Position numbers and translations under genes: made by a program
Shown: piece by piece, positions 2,536 to 23,953 of the stretch
Layout of the letters: every line of letters begins with the position of its first letter
How positions within the stretch are numbered: position 1 is the first letter of the stretch
Notes under the pieces: generated by a model
Database searches by the model: none
What the model was told of the DNA's origin: nothing
Seen by the model: the letters and a program-made list of their open reading frames with translations, nothing else
Assembly: GCA_020860565.1 (NCBI GenBank)
Contig: JAJBUA010000029.1
Coordinates: forward strand, 1-34,021
Direction of reading: 5' to 3'
Origin: Clostridiales bacterium
Lineage (GTDB): Bacteria > Bacillota > Clostridia > Lachnospirales > Lachnospiraceae
Length of the DNA stretch: 34,021 bases

Positions 2536-2561
2536 ATGAAACAGGATCAATGATAAACACA

Positions 2562-2609: not shown

Positions 2610-2616
2610 TCTATTT

Positions 2617-6032: not shown

Positions 6033-6080
6033 TCTCCATCCTCCTTATTTTATAGATAGATAACTATCATAACCGGCAAA

Positions 6081-7295: not shown

Positions 7296-7321
7296 GAGGT
7301 TATTAATATTAACTTTGTTGG

Positions 7322-7476
7322 TTAATCGGCCGTTCCTGAACGGAAAACATATCCTCCGAGGACCGCTTGCGCTTAGGTTTTCACGTAGCGGTACTAAGTT
7401 CGCCGGAAATGCAACCGGCTCACTAAGTGCCGACGTGAAAAATGTCCTCTGCGGATATGTTTTCCGCTCAGGAACT
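7322..7476. mobile_element. 155-bp palindromic element flanked by 10-bp direct repeats (possible MITE)
   Basis: The outer arms are 32 nt each (7332-7363 and 7444-7475) and differ at only a few positions. Inside them, TTTTCACGT (7378-7386) pairs with ACGTGAAAA (7433-7441), then an ACTAAGT-type arm pair follows, and at the tip GCCGG (7402-7406) pairs with CCGGC (7415-7419) around an 8-nt loop. The whole block folds into one long interrupted hairpin. ACTTTGTTGG occurs on both flanks (7312-7321 and 7477-7486), as a target-site duplication would. It codes for nothing. Alternatives are a REP-like RNA stabiliser or a processing site between the two flanking genes. Confidence 0.65.
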
Positions 7477-7552
7477 ACTTTGTTGGCATGTATATAGAGC
7501 TGTAAATCAGATTGTAAAAACTAATGCTAAATTTCTGATTATATGGCTCAGC

Positions 7553-8287
7553 TTATGGATTAAGGATCGCTTCTGTAATATCCTTTCCGAATTCATCCAA
7601 TGGGCAGAAGCGATGTGCATCCGGTGTGGTTGAGAGGTCGGCGTAAACTTCTTCGCGGTTGATATGCAGGGCGAATTCCGGCAGTTTCTGACCGGCGTAG
7701 TCCATGAAGGCGCTGACTGCGAGTTCCGGTTTCAAATTGGCTGCGCTTCCGGTCGCGGCTTTGATCCACAGGCGGCCATCGTCGAGGGATGTGAATTCGT
7801 AAATCATCGGGAGAATATCGACTTCTCGTTCTCCTTTTTTGGATTTTTTTATGACGTTGACGGAACTCTGGCTCATGAATTGCGGGATTTTCCTGGTGAG
7901 TTCTGTCCAGTTTTCCGGTGTTTTTCCTTCGCGGAAGGTCAGGATATAATCTGCGGCCGCTACGATGGACATCGCGTTTTCTGCGTTGTCCGGGAGCAGC
8001 CGGTAATTGATAACGCGCATTTCGTCTACCAGTGCGGCGTTGATCCGGCGAACCATCTCTGTGGATGGTTCCGTACTCAGGACTTCGATGTCCATATATT
8101 CGCCGCTGCTTGTCAGTCCGACACCAAGCGGAGCCGCGAAGGACATGATCGGGTGAGGGCTGAAGCCTTCGCTGTAGCGGATATGCACATCTGCCCGCCG
8201 CAGCACCCGCTGGAAGTAGCGCATCATATCCAGATGGCCGATGAATTTCATGGAGCCCTGTTTGGTAAATTTAATCCTTATTTTCAA
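7553..8287 (-). CDS. TIGR03936 family radical SAM-associated protein (DUF2344)
   Basis: The 244-aa protein matches the DUF2344/TIGR03936 family, found beside or fused to TIGR03960 radical SAM proteins. Its reaction is not established. The N-terminus KIRIKFTKQGSMKFIGHLD and the segment RYSEGFSPHP are family signatures. The start is TTG 8287: the repeated GGAGGAGGAG at 8294-8303 lies exactly 6 nt upstream and the family typically begins at this residue. Upstream in-frame ATGs (8305, 8371) would put this ribosome site inside the gene. The coding region overlaps the 3' end of the TIGR03960 gene by 17 nt, implying translational coupling. No cysteine cluster is present, consistent with an accessory role. 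Confidence 0.88.
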   Translation of the reverse strand: MKIRIKFTKQGSMKFIGHLDMMRYFQRVLRRADVHIRYSEGFSPHPIMSFAAPLGVGLTSSGEYMDIEVLSTEPSTEMVRRINAALVDEMRVINYRLLPDNAENAMSIVAAADYILTFREGKTPENWTELTRKIPQFMSQSSVNVIKKSKKGEREVDILPMIYEFTSLDDGRLWIKAATGSAANLKPELAVSAFMDYAGQKLPEFALHINREEVYADLSTTPDAHRFCPLDEFGKDITEAILNP

Positions 8288-10139: not shown

Positions 10140-10246
10140 GAATTACCTGTTGCGTTTTTCTGTTATTTGTTCGGTTCGTTCGTGTTTCATTATATCTGTT
10201 TGCGCGTTACGTTGCAAGCTGTAATTTATCATTAGTAAAATATAGG

Positions 10247-10296
10247 TTGAATTTCTCCTAGAATCTGCATATACTAAGAGTATCATATACAGGAGG
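10247..10296 (+). promoter_or_regulatory. phd promoter, operator-like palindrome and RBS
   Basis: TTGAAT (10247-10252), a 17-bp spacer and TATACT (10270-10275) form a good promoter. The palindrome ATACT-AAG-AGTAT (10271-10283) overlaps the -10 box and start site, where a Phd-type antitoxin would bind to autorepress. AGGAGG (10291-10296) is 7 nt before ATG 10304. Confidence 0.7.
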
Positions 10297-10303
10297 TTCT
10301 CAC

Positions 10304-10546
10304 ATGAATATAAATACAAGCAATCTTGTCTCTATCACAGAGGCCAACCAGAACTTTTCACGAGTTGCTCGCATGGTTGATGAGAATGGAGCTGTTGTCA
10401 TTCTAAAAAACAACACGCCACGTTACCTGCTTATTGAGTTCAGTTCCGCAGAAGAAGAACAGACAGCACGCGATGAAGACGTCCTTGCCGTATCCAAACG
10501 GCTGCTCGCAAAAAATCATGAAGCCTACGAGGTACTGGCCAAATGA
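10304..10546 (+). CDS. phd: Phd/YefM family antitoxin
   Basis: The 80-aa protein has the Phd/YefM N-terminal DNA-binding fold: residues 8-45 include ITEANQNFSRVARMVDENG and VILKNNTPRYLLI. A short acidic C-terminal tail would neutralise a toxin. It starts at ATG 10304 behind a strong AGGAGG and ends by overlapping the start of a truncated doc gene (AAATGATC, ATG/TGA overlap). It thus looks like the first gene of a phd-doc operon whose toxin is lost. It may still act as a repressor, or as an anti-addiction antitoxin against a related toxin elsewhere (inference). Confidence 0.88.
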   Translation: MNINTSNLVSITEANQNFSRVARMVDENGAVVILKNNTPRYLLIEFSSAEEEQTARDEDVLAVSKRLLAKNHEAYEVLAK

Positions 10547-10605
10547 TCATTCTTTCTAAAGAACAGATTTTATTACTGCACACACAGCTTTTGGGAGAAA
10601 TATAA
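10543..10605 (+). pseudogene. doc: Truncated Doc toxin (first 20 codons only)
   Basis: ATG 10543 overlaps the phd stop codon. The frame reads MIILSKEQILLLHTQLLGEI and then TAA at 10603. The opening is characteristic of Doc/Fic-family death-on-curing toxins, which normally run to about 120-130 residues. The Fic motif (HPFxxGN) is absent here, and no continuation of Doc-like sequence is seen in the next 190 bp in any frame. The toxin is therefore inactive. Confidence 0.72.
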
Positions 10606-10715
10606 GCGCTTAATTTCCGGAGCCGCAAACATGAATGCATCTCTTAGTTCCAGTTCTAAAAATGTCTTTCGTTTCAAAGGCAACTCCATCTTTGTCTTAT
10701 TTGTCAAATACATAA

Positions 10716-10772
10716 ATGCCAACACAGGCCAAAAATGTTGGCATGTAATCATGCTTTCCATTTTTGGCCTGT
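10716..10772. repeat. Overlapping inverted repeats after the doc remnant
   Basis: ACAGGCCAAAAATG (10724-10737) pairs perfectly with CATTTTTGGCCTGT (10759-10772), 14 bp with a 21-nt gap. Overlapping it, ATGCCAACA (10716-10724) pairs with TGTTGGCAT (10736-10744). The two hairpins exclude each other. The long stem lies 22 bp past the stop of the adhesin gene (minus strand) and could end that operon, but there is no U-tract. The surrounding 10606-10793 holds no gene I can support and may be an insertion remnant. Confidence 0.6.
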
Positions 10773-10793
10773 AATCAGATGATTTAATTCTTT

Positions 10794-13700
10794 TTATTTA
10801 CTCAGACAGTTCCTTCTCCGTCTCAGCGTCACATAGATCAAATATGCCGAGCAGGTTGTGAGCAATAGACCTGCGATCCGGAAAGGTGCGGTACCGGAAC
10901 CGCCGGTTTCGGGGAGGACGGAACCCTTGGTGTTGTAAACATATAGACCGATGACATTGTCATTGTTGTCTACAATTAATGCAGCACTGTCGCCGTTAAA
11001 AGTTACACTCCCATCTGCATCAATTTTGAATGAAATGGCACTGCTCAGCAGGTTATAACCGTCCGGAGCGGTGATCTCCTCCAAATAATAGGTTGTTCCC
11101 AGAGAGAGCGAGTGCACCGTTACGCCGGCTTCGCTGTCCACCGATGTGATTGTCATTGCGTCTGTGATCGTAATGGTGTTGTCCACATTTTCCACCCAGA
11201 CAACTTTACCTGTCGTTGAATCATAAGAGTAATAATATTGTGTTTCATCCTCAATGTAATACAGAATGAACTCCGCACCGGCGAGATAAGTGGTTTCAGT
11301 GTCCTTTTCCAGCTTGACGATAGTCAGGTCGGTGGTAGTGTCGGTGGTATAGGTATTTGTTATTTCCGCATTTTTGGTCTCGATATCACTCTCATCAACA
11401 AGATCACTTGCAGAAATCACGAAATCATAACCATAGTCCTTTTTGTCACTTCCCGGCGTGCCGTCGCAGATATTCGCGTTCTGATCCACAGTTACGTAGA
11501 TCGTTTTTGTGGCGGTACCGGTAACTGGTTCCCCGTTCACTGTATAGGAATAGCTGTAAGTAATTGTTACGGCAACGACATCACCATTTTCAAGCGTTAC
11601 ATAATCAGTCAGAATAGAAGTAGGTTCCTTGCCATTCGTGCCGTGACCGGCCACGCTCTTGAATTCTGTATCGCCGCTATTATCATCTGATGTTGTACCG
11701 GCTTGCATTTCGATTTTAATCGGTGTGGAGGTCAGATCCCCGTTTTTATAGACAACCAGTGATGACAGGCTGGTCACCGTGATGGTTCCCGTATAAGTGG
11801 TTGACGTGGTGGCGTTTGCTGCGGTATTTTCATCTACAATGGTGAAACTCCCTTCGGTAGTTGTATACCCTTCCAAAGAGTCAGTAACAGTATATGTGCC
11901 TGCATCCAGATCCACATCCTTCCAGACGTATGTCCAATCGTCAGCCGCAGTCAGGGTCAGGGTCTTTACAACTGTTCCGCTGCTGTTTTCCACAGACACC
12001 GTAATGCTGCTGGGACGGCTGCTTTCGTAACCCTCGTCATTCCACACTTTTGTGATTGTCACATCCGTCTGGCCGGTACCTTCTGTGACTGTTACTTCGA
12101 AAGTACCTGCCACACGCAAGTCAATGTGATAATATGTATATACCCGCGACACTTTTACTGTATTTCCGTTCGTTGCGTCAGCCGTTATCGTCCCGTAATA
12201 GGTATAAGTTCCGTTACTGTACGATACAACCACCACATAATCCACCCCGTCAACCAAATCAAAAGTGACCTGCCCGTTTGAGTTGGTCGTTTCGGTGTAC
12301 AGAGTATTGCCATTGCTGTCTTTTATTGTCACTGATGTGCCAGACCCTACGGAGCTGTAGGTCGTGTTTCCATCGTCATCCGTTCCGCTTGGGTACTGAA
12401 CTGTAATTATTACCTCCGACGTTGCACCATAAACCATGGAATAGCTGTCGGTGGCCGTTCCTCCGTTTTTGCCAGTCGCTGTGACGCTGGCAACAATCGT
12501 CCCGCCTGTTACGCTGCTGGAGCTTTCGCTCATCCAAGTAACCGACACCGTGTCGTCGCCGTTGTCCTGGATCGTTGCCACTACAGTCCCATTGATGTCA
12601 GTCACAGTCCATCCGGAGGTTGAATTTCCTGTAATCGTCAGGGCGTTCCCGTCCACTCCGGTGCCCGTAAACGACCAGCTATAGGAAACGACGCTCATGT
12701 TGGTCGTGGTCGTGGAGAGCGTATTAACCGTGTTTCCGCTATCGTCTGTTCCGCTTGTGGAACTGATGGTCACAGACGGCGTATTGATATAGTACGTATT
12801 AATGCTCGAAATGCTTGTCAGCGTATACGTCCCGTCGCTTGTCACCACGGTATAGGTACCATCACTGTAATTATATGTAATGCTGACAACATTACTAATG
12901 GTGCTTTCAGAAGTACCATTAGACACTACACCATCTACGGTTGTGTAGGAGTAGGTATAGGAGCTTGAAGTAATTACTTCGTCAGCCAGATTCTCCATAT
13001 CCTCCGTCACGTCCTCCGCCAGCGTAAAGCTGGTGATGGAAGAACTCAGAGAACCAGTGCTGCTGTTGTCATCTGAAACAAGATAGGCAGCTACAGTTAT
13101 GCTGGATGCATATTTATAATATAGGTTTATTGTTACGTTGCTGCTACTTAAAGCAGGACTTCCGCTATAAAATGTATCAGATGTTCCGTTTGTGTAGGTT
13201 ATCTCGTAGGTAAAAGTAGTTGTGGTATTGCCACCGCCTCCTGACTGGCTTCTTGTCACGGTGATGGAAGCAACATTTTCATAAGCACTGTCATAAATCA
13301 CGGTGGCTGTGTACAGTTTATACGTAGCGCTATTGTATGTAATCGTACCAATAGTTGAATTGCTGCTGGTCAGGTCAATCGCCGAACCCGATGAAGCAGT
13401 CAAAGTCGTATCCGAGCCAATGTTTATTGTCGTATCATATATATAGGGCGTTGCAGAAAGGAAAAGGTAGGAAGTAGTTTGATTGTCCCCGTTTCCACTG
13501 GTGTAGCCCCACTGCAGCGTAAACGTCGAAAAGCTTTCCACTTCAAACTCCATTGTCACCGCATCGGTATCTACCGTACCTTCCGTTTCATCCGTTGCAT
13601 CCGCCACCAGCGTCGCTTCCAGTCCGTCTCCGCTCTCGGTCAGGTGCTGTACCTCAATGGTGCTTGTGTCCGCATCTTCCGGCACGATCCCTGACGCATC

Positions 13701-15470
13701 GATACTGACGGTCACAGCCTCAGTCGGCTCAACTTCTTCTCCATCCACCAGAAAACTGATATCCAATACCGCCAGTCCGGTGGAAGCTGACGTAGCATCA
13801 TCCGTGCTTTCTTCAATGACAGTTTCGGCTGTCTCCTCATCGGATACAACTTCCGTAGTATCTTCTACTGTATAATCAATCGCTTCCGCGGCCGCCGCGT
13901 ATTCGTCGCTGTCTTCCTCATAGACAGTCACGCTCAGTACCGCGTCTTCCGGCAGCGCCCCTTCGGACGCCGTTACGGTTACGGCTACGCCGTCCGCTTC
14001 CGCCGTATACTCGACGGTCTCCATTGATTCTTCCGTCTCGATCTCATCGAGTTTCAGATCCGCCGCGGTCGTTGCAAATGCCGCCGCGCCTTTTTTATCA
14101 AATCTTACTGATTCATAGACAATACCATCTACAGCATTATCAGCATCGGAGGCGCTTGCCGTTTCGTCCGCGTTGGAGTCGGTCGCCTTGCTCGCGGCAA
14201 GCAGGACACTCTTGTGAACCGAGATTGCGGAGCCAAGGACTTCCACATCCGAGTCTTCCGTGATATCGGAACTGCTGCCATCATCGGAAGTATCATTCGT
14301 ATTTCCGGTATTGTCGCTTACATTATCAGCGGTATTGCCGCTGCTGCCGGCAGTATCTGTATCGGAAGCGGAATTCTCCTCCTCACCTTCAGTACTGGTG
14401 CTGCTGGTGTTGTCACTGGTTTCGGTATTGCTGGTATTCTCATCTTCATTATCATTTTCGGTATCCCCGGTGTTTTCACTTACTGCACCGCTGTTACTGG
14501 TACCGACTTCTTCCGTCCCGGTATCATCAACGTCAGCATCCGTATCTTCGGTATTGGTATTTTCCGTTTCAGTATCCCCCGACACATCTTCCGTTATTTC
14601 CTGATCCGAAGCAGCATCCTCTTCTTCTGCCGGGTCCTCTGCACTGGCATCGGTTTCATCCTCTGCAATATTGCTGTCATCTTCTTCGGACACGACCGTC
14701 ACCTCAGTGTCCTCGGTGATGGACGCGGATTCCTCTGCATCGTCATCGGCTTCATTTGTGATCTCAATCACAGCCTCTTCTTCCGTGCTTTCGGTCTCTG
14801 CCGTTTCCTCGGACGTACTTGCCGAAGAGCTGCCGGAGCCGCCGCCCGAACCGCCAGCGGAAACACTTCTGCTGACCGCCACGGTAAGTGCCGTACTCTC
14901 AACCGCCGTGCTCTCTTCCTCAACTGTGATCGAGTCCACCGGAAGGATGGTGATCGCATCGGTCTCCAGACCGTCTACGCTGATGGTCGCTGTAACGGTC
15001 TTCTCGATCTTATTGCTCACCAGAAAAACGATCTCCTCCGACCCGTCGATCTCATAGGCCTCGTCGACCGGAATATCCCCTTCGATGCGCGCAAAGATCC
15101 GCAGATCCAGTGCCTTGTCCCTGTCATCATCTTCGTCAATCTCTTCGTCTGACAATTCCAGCTCGTACAGAGTGCCGTCCGCCTCGAAGAGCTCTGCGTA
15201 CTCCTCCGCGTGCTCCCCGGCAAATTCCAGATCTTCATTCACGGTATTGCCCTCGGAGACTGCCGTCTGCAGCGCTCCTTGCAATGCCGTCTTTTCGATC
15301 TCATAGGTATAGTCATTATCGTCATCCGCCAGTACCGACACCGGCACCGCGGACAGGTTCCCGATGATCAATGCACCGCACAGGAACACGGAAGCAAGCC
15401 TGCGGCCCTCCCGGCGCAATCTCCCTTCTGTCTTCGCCAAACGCTTCCTTAACTCTCTTTTCATCCCCAT
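10794..15470 (-). CDS. Large LPETG cell-wall-anchored pilus adhesin with Cna-B-type domains
   Basis: The 1558-aa protein starts at ATG 15470 (AGGAGGA at 15477-15483). It has a basic N-terminus and a hydrophobic signal segment ending near SVLADDD. A long Ser/Thr/Asp/Glu/Asn-rich low-complexity region covers roughly residues 190-430 and is probably an extended stalk. Then come Thr/Ser/Tyr-rich beta-type domains. A Cna B-type domain lies at about 1134-1215 (begins TDVTITKVWNDEGY). A SpaA/prealbumin-like domain at about 1380-1515 carries the E-box YYLEEITAPDGY, which supports an intramolecular isopeptide bond. The C-terminus is a sorting signal: LPETG at 1519, a hydrophobic segment and RRRR. As the last and largest gene of the pilus operon it is probably the tip adhesin. 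The ligand is unknown. Confidence 0.92.
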   Translation of the reverse strand: MGMKRELRKRLAKTEGRLRREGRRLASVFLCGALIIGNLSAVPVSVLADDDNDYTYEIEKTALQGALQTAVSEGNTVNEDLEFAGEHAEEYAELFEADGTLYELELSDEEIDEDDDRDKALDLRIFARIEGDIPVDEAYEIDGSEEIVFLVSNKIEKTVTATISVDGLETDAITILPVDSITVEEESTAVESTALTVAVSRSVSAGGSGGGSGSSSASTSEETAETESTEEEAVIEITNEADDDAEESASITEDTEVTVVSEEDDSNIAEDETDASAEDPAEEEDAASDQEITEDVSGDTETENTNTEDTDADVDDTGTEEVGTSNSGAVSENTGDTENDNEDENTSNTETSDNTSSTSTEGEEENSASDTDTAGSSGNTADNVSDNTGNTNDTSDDGSSSDITEDSDVEVLGSAISVHKSVLLAASKATDSNADETASASDADNAVDGIVYESVRFDKKGAAAFATTAADLKLDEIETEESMETVEYTAEADGVAVTVTASEGALPEDAVLSVTVYEEDSDEYAAAAEAIDYTVEDTTEVVSDEETAETVIEESTDDATSASTGLAVLDISFLVDGEEVEPTEAVTVSIDASGIVPEDADTSTIEVQHLTESGDGLEATLVADATDETEGTVDTDAVTMEFEVESFSTFTLQWGYTSGNGDNQTTSYLFLSATPYIYDTTINIGSDTTLTASSGSAIDLTSSNSTIGTITYNSATYKLYTATVIYDSAYENVASITVTRSQSGGGGNTTTTFTYEITYTNGTSDTFYSGSPALSSSNVTINLYYKYASSITVAAYLVSDDNSSTGSLSSSITSFTLAEDVTEDMENLADEVITSSSYTYSYTTVDGVVSNGTSESTISNVVSITYNYSDGTYTVVTSDGTYTLTSISSINTYYINTPSVTISSTSGTDDSGNTVNTLSTTTTNMSVVSYSWSFTGTGVDGNALTITGNSTSGWTVTDINGTVVATIQDNGDDTVSVTWMSESSSSVTGGTIVASVTATGKNGGTATDSYSMVYGATSEVIITVQYPSGTDDDGNTTYSSVGSGTSVTIKDSNGNTLYTETTNSNGQVTFDLVDGVDYVVVVSYSNGTYTYYGTITADATNGNTVKVSRVYTYYHIDLRVAGTFEVTVTEGTGQTDVTITKVWNDEGYESSRPSSITVSVENSSGTVVKTLTLTAADDWTYVWKDVDLDAGTYTVTDSLEGYTTTEGSFTIVDENTAANATTSTTYTGTITVTSLSSLVVYKNGDLTSTPIKIEMQAGTTSDDNSGDTEFKSVAGHGTNGKEPTSILTDYVTLENGDVVAVTITYSYSYTVNGEPVTGTATKTIYVTVDQNANICDGTPGSDKKDYGYDFVISASDLVDESDIETKNAEITNTYTTDTTTDLTIVKLEKDTETTYLAGAEFILYYIEDETQYYYSYDSTTGKVVWVENVDNTITITDAMTITSVDSEAGVTVHSLSLGTTYYLEEITAPDGYNLLSSAISFKIDADGSVTFNGDSAALIVDNNDNVIGLYVYNTKGSVLPETGGSGTAPFRIAGLLLTTCSAYLIYVTLRRRRNCLSK

Positions 15471-15528
15471 ATCCAGTCCTCCTACACTTATCCTTTCCAA
15501 TATGACTGCTTGAGATATTTTTCTTTGA

Positions 15529-16152
15529 TTATTTATAATTGCACCGCACCGTTACGCGGGTTTTCCCGCCGTAGGTGCAGGTAAATAACGACAACGGATA
15601 TCCGCTCCCGGTCATTTCCTCGATCGCGGTCGGCTCCAGGATCTCTGTCTTCGCTACGAGATAACTGGTACTGAATCCTTCCATGTCCGTAAAAATGACT
15701 TCTTCTCCGCCTGTCAGGTTCTTTAACATCCCGAAATGCCGGCTATAATTGTGCGCTGCGATGGTCAGGTCATCCGTATCTGCCGATCCGGTATAACGGC
15801 ACGGCGCGATCCGCAGCCTCGTGTAATCCCAGTCCGCCATCACCGGGAGCTCCAGCCCCAGTACAGGGATGGTCAGGATCCCGATGTAATCATAACCATC
15901 GACCATGAACCGTTCTTCTTCCACCGGGGCAGATTCGTCTGCTTCTTCCTCCTGCACCGCAAAATAGAACGTTTCTTCCTTCTCTGCCTCGCGGGCGGCG
16001 ATCTCCTGCTGGAGGATCGGCACCAGCCCCGCGACGCTCTCACCGGCTTTGCGGTCTTCCGCCCGGTTATGGAGGAGAAGGCCAATCGCTGCGGCCATCA
16101 GCAGGACGCCGACGGCCATGAAGCCAATCCCGATCTTACGCTTCCTGCCCAA
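15529..16152 (-). CDS. Second sortase of the pilus locus (class uncertain)
   Basis: The 207-aa protein has one N-terminal membrane segment (about residues 8-27), a Glu-rich linker and a sortase domain from about residue 85. Catalytic residues are His134 (AAHNYSRH), Cys192 (SLFTCTYGG) and Arg199 (GKTRVTVRC). There is no C-terminal membrane helix and the TLxTC motif is altered to LFTC, so it is not a typical class C enzyme; it may be the housekeeping-like sortase that attaches the pilus or the LPETG adhesin to the wall. The start chosen is TTG 16152, with AGGAAAG about 7 nt upstream; TTG 16170 would extend it by six residues. It overlaps the end of the minor pilin gene by 17 nt, so translation is probably coupled. 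Confidence 0.86.
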   Translation of the reverse strand: MGRKRKIGIGFMAVGVLLMAAAIGLLLHNRAEDRKAGESVAGLVPILQQEIAAREAEKEETFYFAVQEEEADESAPVEEERFMVDGYDYIGILTIPVLGLELPVMADWDYTRLRIAPCRYTGSADTDDLTIAAHNYSRHFGMLKNLTGGEEVIFTDMEGFSTSYLVAKTEILEPTAIEEMTGSGYPLSLFTCTYGGKTRVTVRCNYK

Positions 16153-17080
16153 GGTGTTTCTTTCCTCCAAAGAACAGCTTCCAGCCTAAGGCAAAAACTG
16201 CCAGTCCGCACAATGTCAGCACCGGAATCGGCCAGTTGAGCTGTCCGGTCTGCGGCAGGATCGGGAAGATTGATGTACCCGGATCGCCCGGATCCGACTC
16301 ACCCGAGGAACCGCTGTCCCCTGACGATACGCCGGGACCGCTGCTCGAAGACGAACCGCCGGACGAACTGGAACTGGACCCGCCGGAGGATCCGCCGCTG
16401 CTGTGATGGTGGCTCGAACTGCCGCCCGACGATCCTTCGGAAGACGCTGTCGTTTCTTCTGTCGATTCCGTGGGTTCTTCTGCAGGCTCCGTGGGTTCTT
16501 CAACAGGTTCTGTAGGCTCTTCTGCCGGTTCCGTAGGCTCCGTCTTCAGAGGTTCCGTCTTCGGGGTAGCGTTTATATCATACACATATACCCCGTCACT
16601 AAGGGTCGGCACACTTACCAGGAACGGGCTTATCGCATAATATCCGGAAGCGCTCGTATTCTGCACGATCAGGTACAGTCCCAGCGTCAGATCGGAAAAG
16701 GCCGCGATCCCGTCGCTGCCGATCGTAACAGTCGTCCCCTCCAGGCTGTTATCCGACACATACGTGGAAAGTGTCGAAGCCAGTGCCGACAGATCCTGGG
16801 TATCCAGATCCGTCAGGGAAACGCCGCTGTCTGCAAACGCATCCGTCAGGACGAAGCTGTAATTGCCATCGTCCACATATACCTCTCCGACCTGATACGT
16901 AGTCAGCGTGCCGCCCGCAACCGCTGATCCGGTCGATTCATCCACCATCGTCACCGTGATCGAACCCGTGCGGGTCGTATCCGGCACTGCGGCAAAGGCT
17001 GTCATGCCCAACACCGACGCGGCAAGCAAGATCCCGCTCGTAAAAGCTGCGATTTTTTTCATTAATCCATAATTCTTCAT
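16136..17080 (-). CDS. Minor (base or ancillary) pilin with LPQTG anchor
   Basis: The 314-aa protein starts at ATG 17080, with AGGGGG about 6 nt upstream; an upstream in-frame extension lacks a ribosome site. The signal peptide ends near GMTAFAA (residue about 31). One prealbumin-like domain follows (residues 35-190; ends VYVYDINATP, a layout common in pilin N-domains). Then comes a Pro/Glu/Thr repeat region (EPTEPAEEPTEPVEEP type, about 190-225) and a Ser/Gly-rich stretch with three consecutive His. The sorting signal is LPQTG at residue 275, a hydrophobic helix and GGKK. The rigid Pro-rich stalk is typical of cell-wall-proximal base pilins (inference). It sits between the class C sortase and the second sortase. 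Confidence 0.88.
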   Translation of the reverse strand: MKNYGLMKKIAAFTSGILLAASVLGMTAFAAVPDTTRTGSITVTMVDESTGSAVAGGTLTTYQVGEVYVDDGNYSFVLTDAFADSGVSLTDLDTQDLSALASTLSTYVSDNSLEGTTVTIGSDGIAAFSDLTLGLYLIVQNTSASGYYAISPFLVSVPTLSDGVYVYDINATPKTEPLKTEPTEPAEEPTEPVEEPTEPAEEPTESTEETTASSEGSSGGSSSHHHSSGGSSGGSSSSSSGGSSSSSGPGVSSGDSGSSGESDPGDPGTSIFPILPQTGQLNWPIPVLTLCGLAVFALGWKLFFGGKKHLGQEA

Positions 17081-17165
17081 AGCTTCCCCCTTATTTCCTT
17101 TTTTGAAGTTCCGCATCATTTTTGGTTCTTTATATAGTGATATTTTTCAATATTACTTTTCGTTT

Positions 17166-18080
17166 TTATTCTCTTCCGTCTTCCTCTTGCTTCTTCTTAC
17201 GTTTCCGCATCGCCCTTATGATCCGTACCGGAATCTCAGACAATAGCCAGATCAGTACCAGGGCGCCAACTCCAAGAGCCACCCACTTTACCCACTCCGG
17301 GATTTTTGTCTGCTCCGTTTGGGTCTCTTCCGGAACCGTTGCAATCTTCTCCGGCTCTTCGTCCGAATAAATGCGGCTTCCCCGCACCAGCAGCCGGTGG
17401 GTATTGATCCCATAAGGCGTACAGGTCATCAACGTGCAGTAATCCTTTCCCTCCTCGATGTAGAGGTTTTCGATCTCAGTCGGAAGGACGGTGAGGATCT
17501 GGTCGACCTGGTAGGTGAGGACCTCTTTTAAGATCGTGACTGTGAAAATATCCCCTTCGGCCAGACGATCCAGATGGGTAAAAAGCAGGGCGCTTGGCAA
17601 ACCCGTATGCGCGGAAAGTACACTGTGGGTACTCTCCCCGCCAATAGGAAGGCTGGTTCCCTCCATATGGCCTGCGCCGACCTGCAGAACTGAGGCATCC
17701 GTCCCATGATAAATCGGAAGCTTGACGTCAATTTTGTCAACCGTCACATATCCCATCACGCCGGTTCCCGTGATATCCAGCAGATCCCAGTAGCCTTCAT
17801 CCACCAGTTCCGTGGAAGCAATGGCCTGCGCCGAACCGACCTCATGCAGCCGGTCATTATAAGCCCTGGCCGCCTCGAAATACTCGCTGTAATCCTTCTC
17901 ATTCAGGGCATCCGCCAGCGCATTGTAAGTAGCTACCGCCCTGGTCTGAACCCTGGCATTCCACCAGTCACTGACCGTCGGATACAGCAGCACGCCCACC
18001 CCGATGAGAAATATCAATACAAGGATCCCCGTCGCCAGAAAATCCCTGACCGACCTGCGTTTTTTCTTTGTTTCCTTCAT
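17166..18080 (-). CDS. Class C (pilin-polymerising) sortase
   Basis: The 304-aa protein has two membrane segments (residues about 15-33 and 263-287) with an extracellular catalytic domain, the topology of class C sortases. The catalytic triad is His158 (SAHTGLP), Cys220 (TLMTCTPYG) and Arg229 (HRLLVRG). It would join the Lys of one major pilin to the Thr of the LPSTG motif of the next, building the shaft. It starts at ATG 18080 with GAGAG 5 nt upstream. It lies 193 nt behind the major pilin gene, and that gap contains stem-loops that may lower sortase expression relative to pilin. Confidence 0.95.
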   Translation of the reverse strand: MKETKKKRRSVRDFLATGILVLIFLIGVGVLLYPTVSDWWNARVQTRAVATYNALADALNEKDYSEYFEAARAYNDRLHEVGSAQAIASTELVDEGYWDLLDITGTGVMGYVTVDKIDVKLPIYHGTDASVLQVGAGHMEGTSLPIGGESTHSVLSAHTGLPSALLFTHLDRLAEGDIFTVTILKEVLTYQVDQILTVLPTEIENLYIEEGKDYCTLMTCTPYGINTHRLLVRGSRIYSDEEPEKIATVPEETQTEQTKIPEWVKWVALGVGALVLIWLLSEIPVRIIRAMRKRKKKQEEDGRE

Positions 18081-18114
18081 ATAGCTCTCTATCTCTCCTG
18101 AGCCATTCTTACCT

Positions 18115-18138
18115 GTTGGCTCTTAACTGCCAGCCAAC
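18115..18138. other. Stem-loop between major pilin and sortase genes
   Basis: GTTGGCT (18115-18121) pairs with AGCCAAC (18132-18138). A second, weaker dyad (TTCCTC/GAGGAA) lies around 18187-18215. Neither is followed by a clear U-tract on the minus strand, so an attenuator or RNA-processing site is more likely than a full terminator. Confidence 0.4.
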
Positions 18139-18273
18139 GGATTAAATGCTGACTGACAGCGAACAACCAACAGACTCTCATCCGCGGCTTCCTCCCGACC
18201 CAAAGCCTGAGAGGAAATGCCGCTGTGAGAAATCTTTTGATGATTTCAAATCATACGTGATAAAATATGCAGA

Positions 18274-19950
18274 TTACTCCATCTTGCCAAGACGCTTCTT
18301 TGTAATTAGAAGAACCGCCGCGCCAGCTACCAGGACACCACCGATGATGTAGAAGATCGTAGTGCCGATGCCACCGGTGCTCGGGAGGGTGGAACCAGCA
18401 TGGTTTGCGATAGTAATAGTAATGGTTCCTGCATCAATTGTTTCTATTACATTTTCATTTTCATCCAACACATTCGTTTCTTCTGTATATGTAGTAAAAT
18501 CACTCAATGTATTCGAACTTGTATCTGTAATTGTTAAAGATGTTATTTCATTTTCCGTATGATCAGCAGAAATAACAAAGACAAGTTCTTCCATCGTGTT
18601 ATAGCCATCCGGAGTGGTAGTTTCAACTAATTTGTATTGACCATCATCCAAACCAGACCATTCAAATCTAGTCTCATCAGTAATTTCACTGCCAACAGCA
18701 ACCCAACCATCACTATAAGTTGTTTCTTCTGTCTCTTCATTGTAAGTCGCGACTCCATCTTTTACATACTTATATAAGGTGAATCCTGCTCCAGTCAGGG
18801 CATTTCCATCATCATCTACTTTATCTACTTTCATTGTATAATTATAGACAGTAGTTTTATCATTCGTTGTTTTTCCGGTTGTTGTTCCCGTACTCTCAGT
18901 TGGATTATTTGAATATTCCAGATAAGCGTCGTTGTTTTCCTTATAAGATGCATCATCATCCAACGTTGCAGTATACTTTACAATTATTTTTGACGTACTA
19001 CTTACATCGATCAGAGTCTCGTCACTTTCATACAATACATTTGTATCTGCGATTGTCACTTCGAGACTACATCCATCACTACATGATGTACTTACTGATA
19101 TGTTACTTAAATTAATATCAACCTCTGTATCATCAACGTACACGCTCACACTATTGCTATCATATGTTAGTCCACTTGATAATGAATCATGAAAGACCAG
19201 TTTATAAACGGTATATTCGCTATAATTTGTCGGTAATGTCGCAGTCAGTGTAAATGGAACGTGATCACCTTTATCATGATCAGCCGAATCAACCGAATCT
19301 CCTACACTGGTTGTTGCATCTGTTTCTGTAGAATCGTTAATGTCATCAATATCCTTTTCAAGAGTCGGGATATCTTTTTTTAAATTCTCTATAGTAACAT
19401 TTCCAACAACCTCTAACATATAATTACTATATGCAGCGCCAGTATCTTCAGTAGTATTAGGAACTACTGTATTCTTAATTAAATAGTAACCAGCGCCCAC
19501 CACAGAGATCGTGTAGCGAGAATCACTTTCACTATATTCAGACGTACCGGCGCTTGTTAAAGTAAACGTTGCTATATACTCCGCAAAATCAGCAGCGCTA
19601 ATATTACCATCCGCCAGAGCTTCAGCCAAGCCAGCAACACTGCTTTCATAGTCTGCCACACCGTCTTCGTCTTTATCAGCACTTAAGGTACTACTATAAT
19701 AAGACAGCAATGTAGACTGATCCTCTTCACTCAGAGCCGAGCCAAACTCAACATTGGACAGAGTCGTACCATCTTCGGAAACATCACCTGCAAAAATCTG
19801 GTAGGCGATATAGGTATAACCGTTAATCTCATTGTTAATTGTGATCGTGTAAGTAGGCGTTTCATCCGCGAAAGCCACAGCACTCATACTAAGCACCATT
19901 ACCACCGCCAGTATCATACTGACCAGTTTTCTTAATCCTTTTTGTTTCAT
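18274..19950 (-). CDS. Major pilin subunit, LPSTG-anchored (SpaA/SpaH type)
   Basis: The 558-aa protein starts at ATG 19950, behind GGAGG (19956-19960) with a 5-nt spacer. The signal peptide ends near SAVAFADE (residue 30). The N-terminal domain (about 35-190) ends with the pilin-motif-like TLEKDIDDIND, whose Lys199 is the likely acceptor for sortase cross-linking. A central beta domain covers about 220-385. A C-terminal SpaA-like domain follows, with Lys in MKVDKVD and the E-box YKLVETTTPDGY for an isopeptide bond. The sorting signal is LPSTG at 522, a hydrophobic helix and KKRLGK. Its size, position ahead of the class C sortase and domain order mark it as the shaft subunit. The 264 bp upstream hold a dyad but no confident promoter, so transcription probably enters through the XRE gene. 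Confidence 0.95.
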   Translation of the reverse strand: MKQKGLRKLVSMILAVVMVLSMSAVAFADETPTYTITINNEINGYTYIAYQIFAGDVSEDGTTLSNVEFGSALSEEDQSTLLSYYSSTLSADKDEDGVADYESSVAGLAEALADGNISAADFAEYIATFTLTSAGTSEYSESDSRYTISVVGAGYYLIKNTVVPNTTEDTGAAYSNYMLEVVGNVTIENLKKDIPTLEKDIDDINDSTETDATTSVGDSVDSADHDKGDHVPFTLTATLPTNYSEYTVYKLVFHDSLSSGLTYDSNSVSVYVDDTEVDINLSNISVSTSCSDGCSLEVTIADTNVLYESDETLIDVSSTSKIIVKYTATLDDDASYKENNDAYLEYSNNPTESTGTTTGKTTNDKTTVYNYTMKVDKVDDDGNALTGAGFTLYKYVKDGVATYNEETEETTYSDGWVAVGSEITDETRFEWSGLDDGQYKLVETTTPDGYNTMEELVFVISADHTENEITSLTITDTSSNTLSDFTTYTEETNVLDENENVIETIDAGTITITIANHAGSTLPSTGGIGTTIFYIIGGVLVAGAAVLLITKKRLGKME

Positions 19951-20072
19951 ACTTACCTCCATGTTTTCAAATTCATTTCTTTGTTGCTCTCCTCCATCAG
20001 ACCCATACCCAGATCCAACGGAGGATTTCCTTTGGTTCCCCGTATTCAGTTTTCCCTTGGTAAACCTGCCGC

Positions 20073-20136
20073 CTGAGACGGCTTTTATGGACGGTTTTTC
20101 TATCTCAGTGCCCCCTCACCTCCTTCACCGTCTCAG
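20073..20136. other. Inverted repeat in the major pilin leader region
   Basis: CTGAGACGG (20073-20081) pairs with CCGTCTCAG (20128-20136) across 46 nt. This lies 123-186 nt before the pilin start, within the 264-bp gap behind the XRE gene. It may structure the pilin mRNA leader. No clear -10/-35 pair on the minus strand was found in this gap. Confidence 0.4.
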
Positions 20137-20214
20137 TCTTTTTATATCTGATAAGCCAACCGCCGTGATCCGCCGGCTGGCCTTCGATACCCTGTTTTTA
20201 AAATGTAGGACGCC

Positions 20215-20562
20215 TTACTCCGCCATATAATGCTTCAGATCCACCAGCACTCCCAGGAGCCCGTCCATCCCGCCGTCGTTTACCTTCTGGCGCAGTTCCA
20301 TGATCTCCTGCTCCGTGTCCATATCGTCCACCGGCATCAGCAGTCTTGGACGTGCGTCCTCGGTGCCATTCTCGCAGTGCGCGAGGATGTAGTCGGTCGA
20401 TACCCCGAAGTAATCTGCCAGTGAGATCAGGTTGTCGATCTCGATCCGGTTGCGGTCACGCTCCATCCGGCTGATGATCTGTTGGGATACTCCGATGATC
20501 TTTCCCAACTCCGCCTGCGATAGATTCCTGTCTTTTCTAAGCCTTCTGATATTACTCTTCAT
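20215..20562 (-). CDS. XRE-family helix-turn-helix regulator at the head of the pilus operon
   Basis: The 115-aa protein has a classic Cro/C1-type HTH in residues 1-60: LSQAELGKIIGVSQQIISRMERDRN, followed by LISLADYFGVSTDYIL. The C-terminal 50 residues are of unknown role and may mediate oligomerisation. It starts at ATG 20562, with GGGAG about 9 nt upstream. It is the first gene downstream (minus strand) of the putative invertible promoter and lies 264 bp before the major pilin gene. It may be a pilus regulator co-expressed with the operon, or may control the switch (inference). Confidence 0.9.
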   Translation of the reverse strand: MKSNIRRLRKDRNLSQAELGKIIGVSQQIISRMERDRNRIEIDNLISLADYFGVSTDYILAHCENGTEDARPRLLMPVDDMDTEQEIMELRQKVNDGGMDGLLGVLVDLKHYMAE

Positions 20563-20630
20563 TCAGCATCTCTCCCGTCTTTTCTTTATCGTCCTGCTTC
20601 TCATTTTCTGATGCCTGGAAACGCTCCACC

Positions 20631-20648
20631 TCATAATGCATGTTATGA
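20631..20648. repeat. Left inverted repeat of the putative promoter switch (recombination site)
   Basis: Arms TCATAA (20631-20636) and TTATGA (20643-20648) surround the 6-bp asymmetric spacer TGCATG. The 16 bases 20632-20647 recur exactly, in reverse complement, at 20926-20941. Paired arms around a short spacer are the usual layout of a tyrosine-recombinase crossover site. Confidence 0.75.
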
Positions 20649-20941
20649 AGTGAAGGAGGGAACGAAAGGAGCCGGATACCTGCCTGATGACAGGAAATTA
20701 TGTGATTACAAACAGGCAAAAAAGGACTGTTCTCATCTGCATCATCCAAAATCAGGGCGCACGGAATACCGCCGGACAGAGAAATTCTGCCTGGCTCTTT
20801 TGCATGCAATAAAAAACACAAATTTTTCAATTTTGTCATTCCAAGGGGTTGTAATTTCAGCAGTTTTGATTTATACTATCCATAATTTGAGTGGGTTTTT
20901 TGAAGTTAAGTTCAGACATGCACCACATAACATGCATTATG
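20632..20941. other. Putative invertible promoter segment controlling the pilus operon
   Basis: The 310-bp interval is bounded by exact 16-bp inverted repeats and lies in the 403-bp gap between the tyrosine recombinase gene and the XRE/pilin operon. It contains a plus-strand promoter (20849-20877) and no credible gene. In the present orientation the promoter points at the 3' end of the recombinase gene (antisense). Inversion would aim it at the XRE gene, with about 125 nt of leader. The inverted spacers (TGCATG against CATGCA) predict inversion rather than excision. Seen: repeats, promoter and gene order. Inferred: switching and ON/OFF states. Confidence 0.7.
20849..20877 (+). promoter_or_regulatory. 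Promoter inside the invertible segment (points away from the pilus genes here)
   Basis: TTGTAA (20849-20854), a 17-bp spacer and TATACT (20872-20877) match the sigma-A consensus at 4/6 and 5/6. The predicted start is near 20884, about 42 bp from the right repeat. No comparably good promoter was found on the minus strand of the segment. Confidence 0.65.
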
Positions 20942-20957
20942 TGGTCTTTCTTTTTTC
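20922..20957 (+). repeat. Right inverted repeat of the switch, with terminator-like T-tract
   Basis: Arms ACCACATAA (20922-20930) and TTATGTGGT (20937-20945) surround the spacer CATGCA. The copy shares 16 exact bases (20926-20941) with the left site in inverted orientation. On the plus strand the 9-bp hairpin is followed by CTTTCTTTTTTC (20946-20957), which could stop transcripts from the internal promoter in the present orientation. Confidence 0.7.
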
Positions 20958-20965
20958 AACGGCCG

Positions 20966-21811
20966 CTAAGCCGCCACCACCAGGTCCATTTCATCCAGGA
21001 TCTGCACCTGCTTTTTCCACCCACATTGCACATAGATACGGGTCGTATTCAGATTGGAGTGCCCTAAGACATCCGCCAGATTTGCCAGGTTCTTTTCCTG
21101 CTCATAATAAATGCAGGCAAACAGGTGACGCAAATTATGCGGGAACCCTTTGCTGCTGGCGACGCCTGCCATTTCGCACAGTTTCTGAATCTCATGATAA
21201 ATATTGCTCCGGTCAACCGGCTTCCCGCCGCGTGTGACAAAGATGCTTCCTTTTTTTATACCGTTTTTCCGGATATAAGCCTTTAACAACTGGATAAGTT
21301 TCCGCGGCAGGATGATGCGGCGGTTTTTGCCTTTCATATTGACATCCGCGTATCCCGCCCTGACCGCCTCCACTGTAATGAAACGAAGCTCACTGATCCG
21401 AATACCAGTAGAGCAGATCGTCTGCAGGATATGCCAGAGGCGCATCTTCTCCCCAGCCTTCGCCGCTGCGAGTAACCTTTCATATTCCTTCCGGCTTAAC
21501 TCCCTGTCCTCTCTTCGGAAATTCCTTTTCTGCGTTTTGATCGTCTTGACGACACAGTCGTACCATCCACAAAATTTCAAAAAGCCGTTTACTCCGGCCA
21601 GCATGCTGTTGATGCTCGATACCAGGTAGCTTTTCAGCAAAAAGTCCTTGTATGCAATCATCATCTCCTTATCCACCGGCTCTGCTCCTGCATAGTTTAA
21701 AAACACGCCCAAATCATGCATGTACTTATTCACGGTCGCCTCGCTCTTTTCCTCGTCGATTAAAGACTTTCTGTATTCTTCCACCATTTCTTCTGTGATT
21801 ACTTTTATCAT
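20966..21811 (-). CDS. Tyrosine recombinase, candidate pilus-switch invertase
   Basis: The 281-aa protein has an N-terminal SAM-like core-binding domain (about residues 5-90) and a C-terminal catalytic domain with a full active site: Arg138 (TGIRISEL), Lys160 or 162, His225 and Arg228 (HNLRH), His251 (LGHSN) and Tyr260 (TRIYV). It is Xer/FimB-like in size, with no large accessory domain. The gene ends 25 bp from the right inverted repeat of the promoter segment and is transcribed in the same direction as the pilus genes, the arrangement expected of a dedicated invertase. No phage or transposon genes accompany it. The start is ATG 21811 with AGGAG 10 nt upstream. Alternative: an integrase left by a lost mobile element. 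Confidence 0.9.
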   Translation of the reverse strand: MIKVITEEMVEEYRKSLIDEEKSEATVNKYMHDLGVFLNYAGAEPVDKEMMIAYKDFLLKSYLVSSINSMLAGVNGFLKFCGWYDCVVKTIKTQKRNFRREDRELSRKEYERLLAAAKAGEKMRLWHILQTICSTGIRISELRFITVEAVRAGYADVNMKGKNRRIILPRKLIQLLKAYIRKNGIKKGSIFVTRGGKPVDRSNIYHEIQKLCEMAGVASSKGFPHNLRHLFACIYYEQEKNLANLADVLGHSNLNTTRIYVQCGWKKQVQILDEMDLVVAA

Positions 21812-22137
21812 CGCTAATATTCTCCTTTTTGCTCGTATTTTACAACTAATAGTTCTATTTCATATCATCTCACAACTTTCCAGCTTACGCCACAGTTTTT
21901 TTAAAATTTTTAATTTCGGGGTAACATCATAACGCAGCATATCAATATCCGTAAAGGGGAAAAATAAAAGATAATTGAAAGAAATGTCACAAAGAATTAC
22001 CATCTTTCACGGCGTAAACCGGACGCTTTTGTAAATTTATTTTACTTCCCTGAAAAAATCTGTTATATTGGATATAAACAGACATTCAGTCGAAATCAAA
22101 ATATTTCACACACGGATCATCATTTTCAGGAGAAATC
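21812..22137. promoter_or_regulatory. Divergent intergenic region with LysR promoter
   Basis: This 326-bp AT-rich gap separates the divergent recombinase and LysR genes. For LysR, TTTACT (22041-22046), a 17-bp spacer and TATATT (22064-22069) with an upstream TG (extended -10) form a promoter. CTGTTATA...TATAAACAG (22060-22081) is an imperfect dyad over the -10 region, suited to autoregulation. AGGAGA is just before ATG 22138. No confident promoter was found for the recombinase; TTGTGA on the minus strand near 21870 has a poor -10. Nothing else was recognised. Confidence 0.6.
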
Positions 22138-23046
22138 ATGGATACCAAACAGATCGAATACATTCTCAAGATTGCAGAAGAAAATAACATTACCAAGGCG
22201 GCGGATAAGCTTTTTATCACCCAGTCCGCACTCAATCAGCAGCTTTTAAAGCTGGAAAAGGAGCTGGGCACCCCGCTTTTCCACCGTTCGCGCACCAACT
22301 GGCGGCTGACGGAGGCAGGCCGCATCTATATCGAAGGCGCCAAGGAAGCCCTGCAGATCAAAAAGACTACCTACAACCGTATCTATGATGTGGTAAACGC
22401 CAAAAAGGGCTCTCTCACCATAGGGCTCACTCCCGGCCGCGGACTGCGTCTTTTTACGGAAATCTATCCGGAGCTGCACCGCAATTTTTCCAACCTTGAG
22501 GTGCGTCCGATTGAGATGCGCGTCCGCCCGCAGCAGGAAGCCATCGCCCGCGGCGAACTCGACATCGGCTTTATGACTCTGCACGAGCAGGAGCGTACCT
22601 CGGACAACTATCTGACTCTTGGCAAGGAAGAGCTGATCCTCATCATCCCCTCCGGGCATCCCACTGCCGCGAAGGCGGCTCCTGATGGCGCGCCGCTCAC
22701 CACGCTGGATATCCGCGAGCTCCGCTACGAGCCCTTTGTGCTGATGGACAAGACCTCCACGCTGCGTGCTGTCTGCGACCGGCTCTTCGATCAGGCCGGC
22801 TTTACTCCGAATATTCTCTTTGAAACCAATAATACCGCAGGCATCGCGCGGATGGTAGAATCCACGTTCTGCTGCGGTATCATTCCCTGGTATTATGTCC
22901 GCGAACCCTCGCCGCGGCTGGCGCGTTTTACACTGGAGACGCACCCCATCTGGGACGTCGCGGTGAGCTATCCCAGATCCGGGTATCTGAACTCGGGGGC
23001 GAAGGAGTTTATACGGCTGGCGCAGGAAAACTGGAACAGCTTGTAG
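22138..23046 (+). CDS. LysR family transcriptional regulator (divergent from the recombinase)
   Basis: The 302-aa protein has an N-terminal winged HTH (residues 1-60; AADKLFITQSALNQQLLKLE) and a LysR substrate-binding domain (about 90-295). It starts at ATG 22138 with AGGAGA upstream and an extended -10 promoter. It is a close relative of the LysR proteins at 1618 and 27166. No metabolic gene is divergent from it; the divergent neighbour is the tyrosine recombinase. If the usual LysR rule holds, it may control recombinase transcription and so the pilus switch (inference). Alternatively its original target genes were displaced. A strong intrinsic terminator follows. Confidence 0.92.
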   Translation: MDTKQIEYILKIAEENNITKAADKLFITQSALNQQLLKLEKELGTPLFHRSRTNWRLTEAGRIYIEGAKEALQIKKTTYNRIYDVVNAKKGSLTIGLTPGRGLRLFTEIYPELHRNFSNLEVRPIEMRVRPQQEAIARGELDIGFMTLHEQERTSDNYLTLGKEELILIIPSGHPTAAKAAPDGAPLTTLDIRELRYEPFVLMDKTSTLRAVCDRLFDQAGFTPNILFETNNTAGIARMVESTFCCGIIPWYYVREPSPRLARFTLETHPIWDVAVSYPRSGYLNSGAKEFIRLAQENWNSL

Positions 23047-23225: not shown

Positions 23226-23486
23226 ATGACGATAATCCAGAAACGTTTACAGAAATTTTATCGGAAACCTGTTCCCAACGATATTACCTTCGATGATGTA
23301 AAGGCAATATCTGAATATTACGGATGTATTGTTGTCAGCGGCGGCAATCACAGCAAAAAGATAATCCATCCTCAGACCGGCACAGTTATTCCGATTCCCA
23401 TGCACGGAAAAACAATTAAAGAAGCCTATATAAAAGAATTAAAAAAACTGTTTGAACAAATTTCTTCCGGAAAGGAGAATGCTTAA
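23226..23486 (+). CDS. hicA: HicA family mRNA interferase toxin
   Basis: The 86-aa protein matches HicA (double-stranded RNA-binding-like fold). It has the SGGNHSKKI segment with the likely catalytic His42, then HPQTG and IPIPMHGKTIKEAYIKEL, the family C-terminal motif. HicA cleaves mRNA when released from HicB. It starts at ATG 23226; GAAAGG lies about 9 nt upstream. Its stop codon overlaps the hicB start (TAATG). The protein is slightly longer at the N-terminus than minimal HicA proteins, which are about 60-80 residues. Confidence 0.88.
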   Translation: MTIIQKRLQKFYRKPVPNDITFDDVKAISEYYGCIVVSGGNHSKKIIHPQTGTVIPIPMHGKTIKEAYIKELKKLFEQISSGKENA

Positions 23487-23953
23487 TGCAATACGAATTT
23501 AAAGTTTACCAGATGCAGATTGAAAACCACCTTTTCTGGGTTGCGGAGAGCTGTGCCCTGAAAGGCTGCGTTGGTCAGGGCGATACGACCAATGACGCCA
23601 TCCGGGAACTGGCTGATAATGAAAAGGAATGGTTAAAAACTGCCCGTCAATACGACATTCCGATTCCACCTGTTACGGTAAAAAAAGAAAGGCAGTTCAG
23701 TGGAAAAATTTCTCTGCGTATTTCTCCATTTGTCCACGAAACTGCCTACAATCATTCACAGGAACTCGGCATCAGTTTAAACCAGTATCTGAACGATGCG
23801 ATTGTATCTTATAATACCCAATGCCAGACCACTTATAACCGGGAACCTGCTCCCACTTCTCAGCCGGACCAGACATCCGCTACTTTGATTGATCTTCCAA
23901 AACATCGATTTACAAAATCATTGATACCCTCATCCGATCCAAAAAAGATGTAA
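23486..23953 (+). CDS. hicB: HicB family antitoxin
   Basis: The 155-aa protein has an N-terminal HicB partial RNase H-like domain (residues 1-65; WVAESCALKGCVGQGDT and DAIRELADN are typical). A ribbon-helix-helix segment follows (about 75-112; KISLRISPFVHETAYNHSQ, GISLNQYLNDAI) for DNA binding and autoregulation. The tail after residue 115 is Pro/Gln/Thr-rich and not conserved in the family. The start ATG 23486 shares one base with the hicA stop; AAAGGAG is 8 nt upstream. Its stop lies 4 bp from the stop of the convergent DUF1667 gene, with no terminator visible between. Confidence 0.9.
   Translation: MQYEFKVYQMQIENHLFWVAESCALKGCVGQGDTTNDAIRELADNEKEWLKTARQYDIPIPPVTVKKERQFSGKISLRISPFVHETAYNHSQELGISLNQYLNDAIVSYNTQCQTTYNREPAPTSQPDQTSATLIDLPKHRFTKSLIPSSDPKKM

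Follow-up and report, generated by a model that had tools for sequence, protein, structure and literature searches.

A predicted recombinase-linked invertible promoter before a sortase-pilus operon in a Lachnospiraceae bacterium

Introduction

Type 1 fimbriae of Escherichia coli are chaperone-usher fimbriae whose fimS switch is served by two recombinases, and in both respects they are unlike the locus described here. The likeness lies in the anatomy: in the account of PMC9993118, an invertible segment of ~310 bp carries a promoter and goes with tyrosine recombinases (FimB and FimE) and a pilus operon. The cwpV switch of C. difficile (RecV) shares with our locus the class Clostridia, a site-specific recombinase, a surface-protein target and a proposed intrinsic OFF terminator; unlike our locus, the cwpV promoter is situated outside the inverting DNA, upstream of it, and recV is not close to cwpV, as PMC2784873 describes it. 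In the gut commensal Bifidobacterium breve, sortase-dependent pili are under ON/OFF control, which PMC9187656 attributes to replication slippage and not to DNA inversion.

Invertible promoters of this general kind are known as invertons, and those of gut bacteria are among the systems closest to ours. According to the main text of PMC11892184 (published in 2025), inverton group 139 comprises 33 invertons, 32 of them from class Clostridia; it is most significantly linked to the tyrosine recombinase ‘invertase group 35’, and its repeat motif is called novel. The same text gives a median of 3 invertons in Clostridia-like genomes, compared with 8.5 in Bacteroidota. Group 139 resembles our locus in its short inverted repeats, nearby tyrosine recombinase and clostridial origin; two examples measure 255 and 257 bp, and there inversion was observed in reads. 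Compared by that main-text description, our switch and group 139 may be of the same family, and the words ‘sortase’ and ‘pili’ have no occurrence in the main text of PMC11892184.

Here we describe a locus in a window of 34,021 nucleotides, the whole stretch of DNA that was analysed. An earlier note on this DNA, made from the letters alone, had proposed a phase-variable pilus switch and called it apparently undescribed. That last claim needs softening: the locus belongs to a known type of system, the invertible promoters or invertons, and possibly falls within the Clostridia group of PMC11892184. No sortase pilus under promoter inversion was found among the matches listed in open-licence literature searched by titles and abstract openings, which is weak evidence of absence.

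Results

Architecture of the locus

The predicted switch spans 310 bp between a tyrosine recombinase gene and a pilus operon, which are co-directional. The features, by position in the window, are:

10794-15500, minus strand: large surface protein of 1568 aa, a putative adhesin containing SpaA and Cna_B domains (no NCBIfam family)
15529-16170, minus strand: second sortase-domain protein (PF04203, 2.6e-12; no NCBIfam model over cut-off)
16136-17119, minus strand: second pilin-like protein with weak matches (SpaA and GramPos_pilinD1 under cut-off; iso_D2_wall_anc 49.6 bits, cut-off 95)
17166-18080, minus strand: class C (pilus) sortase (NF033745, 272.7 bits, cut-off 160)
18274-19962, minus strand: LPXTG backbone pilin (GramPos_pilinBB, SpaA and Gram_pos_anchor; RrgB_K2N_iso_D2 over cut-off, SpaH/EbpB model under)
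20215-20562, minus strand: XRE-family (HTH_3) regulator gene that opens the operon (PF01381, 7.3e-17)
20632-20647, unstranded: putative operon-side recombination site, CATAA-TGCATG-TTATG, reading CATAATGCATGTTATG; exact reverse complement of 20926-20941
20648-20925, unstranded: segment predicted to invert, the 278 bp that separate the exact repeats, with same-orientation homology to other window-type segments
20849-20877, plus strand: promoter-like site TTGTAA-17-TATACT, 9/12 consensus match, directed toward the recombinase (predicted OFF for the pilus)
20922-20955, plus strand: hairpin with 9-bp arms, the recombinase-side site as its core, followed by a T-tract (folding, T-tract); probably terminator-like for the OFF transcript
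20926-20941, unstranded: putative recombinase-side recombination site, CATAA-CATGCA-TTATG on the plus strand, reading CATAACATGCATTATG
20966-21811, minus strand: tyrosine recombinase, predicted to invert the segment (PF00589, 2.7e-26)

Domain searches returned the gene order that the earlier note had read (XRE, pilin, sortase, pilin, sortase, adhesin), with the second pilin weak and the adhesin putative. An LPXTG pilin with an isopeptide-type domain stands together with a class C sortase, the combination that marks a sortase-assembled pilus operon. The description of the switch in that note also stood: the segment lies between the recombinase and the XRE/sortase-pilus genes, is free of genes (mechanical ORFs excepted), and is bounded by 16-bp repeats that are exact reverse complements, each having an asymmetric spacer of 6 bp between arms of 5 bp (CATAA/TTATG); the spacer reads in opposite senses in the two repeats (TGCATG and CATGCA). 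In 300 dinucleotide shuffles of 20200-21300, scored for exact inverted repeats 100-600 bp apart, the longest reached 14 bp (in 2/300). The unit at 20632-20941 has the marks of an inverton, namely inverted sites, an agreeing asymmetric spacer and a short segment between them, with a tyrosine recombinase bearing the catalytic residues nearby. A structured leader RNA was considered and dropped, with no Rfam match at the gathering threshold in the window or in the fetched loci L044 and L049.

The closest PDB match of the recombinase is the XerC-like 4a8e (6.1e-20). Its reading frame is open, with no internal stop, and R138, K160, K162, H225, R228, H251 and Y260, the Xer-like catalytic residues, are invariant across this protein and four relatives. 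The protein falls under every NCBIfam cut-off, including those of the Xer equivalogs (XerA, 131 bits against 220; XerC, 104 against 335; XerD, 96 against 330) and of the tyrosine-type DNA invertase models (31.8 against 221). A peptide-pattern scan found no close relative in viral contigs, and distant matches occur in 72 of 50,697 phage records (40 covering ≥80% of the query; best identity 40.9%). With no close viral-contig relative and such distant phage matches, we rejected a phage integrase as the identity of this enzyme. The product of 20966-21811 is the enzyme predicted to invert 20648-20925.

Promoter-like sites and the hairpin

That the segment holds one good promoter directed away from the pilus genes was borne out for the site and its direction (plus strand, with the operon on the minus strand) and less so for its strength. 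The consensus match is weak by itself because the scanned region is rich in such sites, with nine of this quality in 19900-22200 against 3.7 expected (s.d. 1.8). Presence in paralogues is the better support for a promoter at 20849-20877: in each of the six intact window-type copies of the switch, the top-scoring site is one directed toward the recombinase, narrowly in G019:C49 (9.5 compared with 9.2), and the site falls within the best-conserved block of the alignment, as judged by eye. By consensus scan and conservation, promoter-like sites lie both inside the segment and outside it, the latter aimed at the operon. The scan listed none on the minus strand between 19900 and 20960, and four farther upstream (22066-22039, 21990-21961, 21955-21926 and 21162-21134, the last within the recombinase gene). 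With these four sites aimed at the operon and no minus-strand terminator-like site listed in 19900-22200, the operon is possibly not silent in the OFF orientation, which slightly lowers our confidence in the switch as read here.

The right-hand repeat forms the core of a palindrome with 9-bp arms (20922-20945), followed on the plus strand by the T-tract. Its folding energy as the OFF hairpin is -10.0 kcal/mol; the predicted ON site reaches -10.3 kcal/mol but without a T-tract. The asymmetry recurs across 17 CATAA-type switches: at least seven T among the 12 outward bases, a threshold chosen after the data were seen, were found at 14/17 recombinase-side sites (the exceptions being G017:C154, C51 and C87) and at 0/17 operon-side sites. 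Terminator-like sites as such show no excess (two found, 2.1 expected). Because of the T-tract asymmetry between the two sides, the recombinase-side site appears to double as a terminator of the OFF transcript.

The cassette recurs in the genome, the genus and the family

The window (contig C15 of genome G000) holds one copy of what its recurrence identifies as a repeated recombinase-linked cassette. Intact window-type switches number six, three in this genome (G000:C15, C17 and C44) and three in the same-genus genome G019 (C77, C42 and C49). An XRE gene adjoins the switch in five of the six, the exception being G000:C44, where a surface-protein gene lies directly next. Pilin and sortase relatives follow the switch at four of the copies, those of the window and of G019; downstream of G000:C17, just an XRE gene and a surface-protein match were detected. 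The segment is homologous, in the same orientation, to those of G000:C17 and of G019:C77, C42 and C49, while the G000:C44 segment aligns with C17 alone (z 6.7). Searched as DNA, the promoter block matched this genome alone among 100 of the family (G019 not being among the 100), and window-type pairs with a gap of 255-285 occurred in 2/24 genus genomes, G000 and G019, at two places each (none by control). The window's own subtype is therefore narrow.

Two further loci of the same genome carry related operon genes. A second pilus locus (L049, G000:C108, 2403-11963) has a distant XRE gene (41.5%), a leader with a 74% match to the window's pilin leader, and no family recombinase within the fetched stretch. 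In L045 (G000:C48, 8681-9025), an XRE gene 91% identical to the window's adjoins a sortase-like gene; no recombinase match was found in the fetched stretch, and the 341 bases read contain no inverted pair.

Beyond the subtype, the recombinase was found at E ≤ 1e-40 in 12/24 genus genomes, at 31 loci in total. The earlier note had made its reading depend on conservation of the repeats with the recombinase gene; a site pair lies 3′ of the gene at 18/31 loci. The main pair search covered 27 of the 31 and gave 10 CATAA-type pairs and 5 with ACAAC/GTTGT arms; among the other four, G000:C15, C17 and C44 have pairs and G019:C85 stops at a contig edge. CATAA-type pairs start up to ~150 bp beyond the matched part of the recombinase (for example at G022:C12 and G017:C186), and the ACAAC/GTTGT-arm sites (L112, L113, L114, L116 and L119) come after recombinases in G002, G014 and G001 that are 44-49% identical. 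Four recombinases have neither a pair nor a contig end beside them (G000:C52, G019:C68, G020:C13 and G005:C19), and four site pairs have no listed recombinase adjacent (G020:C4 and C10b; G017:C51 and C87). Across the family, a search for paired sites that left the spacers free gave 11 matches in 8/299 genomes and none with the pattern reversed; the gap of 185-215 that it used excludes window-type pairs, which makes 8/299 a lower bound. The fetched locus contains a recombinase of 40-50% identity for 10 of these 11 pairs, with none within the 1.5-kb flanks of L138. In three loci from other genera (L135, L140 and L142), a third site copy with the same spacer lies in direct orientation 35-74 bp from one end.

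The surroundings of the switch differ in the sister genome G019, whose cassettes are not at the window's position. In a comparison with two fetched G019 stretches, L151 (G019:C54) and L152 (G019:C72), the regions flanking the block 2519-22126 stand ~70 bp apart: the region matching 22127-23046 lies that far from the region matching 54-2518. The part matching 6817-10158 is on another contig, as is the RNase G/radical SAM part of the block. Neither of the two fetched stretches contains a recombinase, XRE, pilin, sortase or surface-protein match, and the arrangement reflects a rearrangement, an insertion or a misassembly. Beside the pilus operon, 10304-10546 encodes a Phd/YefM-like antitoxin (under the Pfam cut-off), and 10235-10600 matches G020:C18 and C13 at 89%. 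A HicA/HicB-type pair at 23226-23953 (HicA under and HicB over its Pfam cut-off) is missing from the corresponding G019 place, where the flanks stand 27 bp apart.

Spacers agree within each pair

Site pairs were gathered from two site-pattern searches (hits 150-400 bp apart) and the family paired-site matches, giving 5 + 11 + 11 = 27 pairs located without requiring spacer agreement; G000:C44, with one arm CATAG, was located by inverted-repeat search and stands outside the 27. In all 27 the spacers agree in the inverted sense, and the 6-bp spacer differs among loci. The stricter genus pattern (11 pairs) paired 22 of its 28 forward hits, with one hit in the control. Its six single hits comprise three near contig ends (G010:C11, G015:C57 and G017:C4), one at G022:C39 and two in G017:C25; the last two were set aside as lying inside coding sequence, by eye a putative glmM gene and a partial duplicate. 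The looser pattern (5 pairs) gave 11 and 22 forward hits against 6 and 10 in the reversed control, so that its single hits mean little and its pairs are the evidence. We do not claim distinct spacers within a genome as a sign of selection, since few collisions are expected anyway; G019:C25 and C77 share TATGTG.

Homologous segments lie in both orientations

Each of the 17 CATAA-type switches was read in the direction from the recombinase to the operon (by eye from downstream ORFs for the four without an adjacent listed recombinase), and their segments were compared. Alignment was obtained for 37/136 segment pairs (z > 6), all compatible with one orientation assignment. The 11 alignable window-type pairs are all in the same orientation; the other 26 comprise 10 inverted and 16 same, with no contradiction. 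G020:C18 and G017:C154 carry the segment the opposite way round from G020:C10a, C4 and C10b and from G017:C186, C195, C51 and C87. Between G020:C10a and C18 the order of recombinase and HTH genes is kept and the segment is inverted, with an alignment score of 78 (z 28.6) in the inverted sense against 12 (z 1.0) in the same sense, matching over 191 bp at 71% as the reverse complement only. The G018 and G022 segments align with no other. Both orientations had been expected across related genomes, and they are seen in the homologous G020 and G017 switches; the six intact window-type copies share a single orientation, OFF by the predicted promoter direction.

A TTGCTT-17-TAGAAT/TAAAAT site aims at the operon in G020:C18, where it has the second-best score, and in G017:C154; the TTGCTT site aims at the other side in G020:C10a and C4 and G017:C186 and C195. 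Promoter scores tie at 8.5 in G017:C186 and C195 and G020:C4; since such scores alone do not orient these switches, the G020 and G017 orientations rest on segment homology. G022:C12 looks ON by promoter score alone. Downstream of G020:C18, in the ON orientation, stand an HTH gene, CpsB/CapC and a Wzz/polysaccharide ORF (L104, 709-3999), and polysaccharide may be switched there too. Surface proteins, a pilin and a sortase follow G017:C154.

Contigs tend to end on the segment side of the recombinase, with an end ≤310 bp downstream of the gene at 9/31 loci and upstream at 0/31 (Fisher p 0.002), or 9 compared with 1 within 500 bp. At six of the nine cut loci a single CATAA-type site is found close to where the contig stops (G019:C25, C71 and C85; G000:C18; G010:C11; G015:C57). 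G019:C71 and C17 end at sites with a common spacer, TGGAAG, the former on the recombinase side and the latter before an XRE-pilin operon. Such ends could arise from mixed orientations, or from assembly trouble at short repeats.

Discussion

We consider it highly likely that the 310-bp unit at 20632-20941 is a site-specific invertible promoter, flipped by the adjacent recombinase and controlling the pilus operon. This reading is supported because the cassette recurs, the spacers agree within pairs, orientations differ in G020 and G017, and contigs end downstream of the recombinase. The earlier proposal of an invertible promoter switch is thereby supported, with inversion of the window copy itself predicted, as are catalysis by this recombinase, the promoter and terminator functions and the ON/OFF control of the pilus. 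We judge the element, which is conserved, linked to a recombinase and placed ahead of a sortase-pilus operon, to be very probably functional.

By this mechanism, the adjacent recombinase would bind the CATAA/TTATG arms of both sites, exchange strands within the 6-bp spacer and flip the segment. In the sequenced (OFF) orientation, the promoter would fire toward the recombinase, and the transcript would meet the hairpin and T-tract and probably stop. After inversion (ON), the promoter would read across the operon-side site, which is without a T-tract, into the XRE regulator, the pilin and the class C sortase, and the transcript would continue through the second pilin, the second sortase and the large surface protein.

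The assignment of the adjacent enzyme has a rival in which the segment does invert, with a related recombinase elsewhere acting in trans and the adjacent gene mainly serving other sites. The genome offers candidates, namely five recombinases of the family with 49-100% identity and another two with 26%; pairs with no listed recombinase alongside (the four in G020 and G017, and L138) and the 4/31 recombinases with neither pair nor contig end are as this would predict. Yet a pair follows the gene at 18/31 recombinase loci, and 10/11 pairs in other genera, found by site pattern alone, come with a recombinase in the fetched locus; we regard action in trans as unlikely. What the segment contributes can also be read differently, with most transcription of the operon reading through from the recombinase gene and the segment passing or blocking it, as at cwpV, rather than supplying a promoter. 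Because recombinase and operon are co-directional, this rival stays a serious one where part of the transcription is concerned, and the minus-strand promoter-like sites at and upstream of the recombinase gene, with no listed terminator-like site on that strand, favour it. As the main source of transcription it seems to us quite unlikely, given that the toward-recombinase site is kept in all six window-type segments, that its homologous counterpart aims at the operon in G020:C18 and G017:C154, and that pairs exist with no listed recombinase adjacent.

The single orientation in which all six intact window-type copies were assembled would also suit a locked switch, its anatomy inherited and the window copy no longer inverting. 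The open recombinase frame, the intact sites and the agreeing spacer argue against this, as do the G019 contigs C25 and C71, which carry recombinases of 79-82% identity and end just beyond the recombinase-side site, and we hold it to be very unlikely. Finally, the repeats could be nothing more than terminators flanking intergenic DNA, with the recombinase being an Xer- or phage-type enzyme that has no connection with them. The terminator-like recombinase-side repeat, an enzyme nearest to the Xer models though under their cut-offs, and the distant matches in 72/50,697 phage records (at best 40.9% identity) speak for such a view; agreement of spacers within pairs and the opposite segment orientations led us to reject it, and with no close relative found in viral contigs it appears extremely improbable.

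Within the invertible-promoter reading, we tentatively suggest a spacer-barcoded family of switches, possible rather than probable, in which one genome has several paralogous recombinase-switch-surface cassettes, 6-bp spacers particular to each locus would let each cassette invert alone with no recombination between loci, the recombinase-side site would also serve as the OFF terminator, and the HTH/XRE gene that heads most of these operons may couple the loci and keep the number in the ON state low at any time. Three aspects deserve attention: the pilus as target, the spacers specific to each locus, and the asymmetry that makes one site terminator-like. Genes behind the repeated cassette encode sortase pili and large LPXTG surface proteins, and in one relative they are polysaccharide genes. 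If the switches flip, the frequent contig ends at these loci would be explained, and one clone may show differing pilus sets, with consequences for adhesion, phage attack and immune recognition. The natural variety of spacers makes the insulation of paralogous switches by spacer identity a testable idea.
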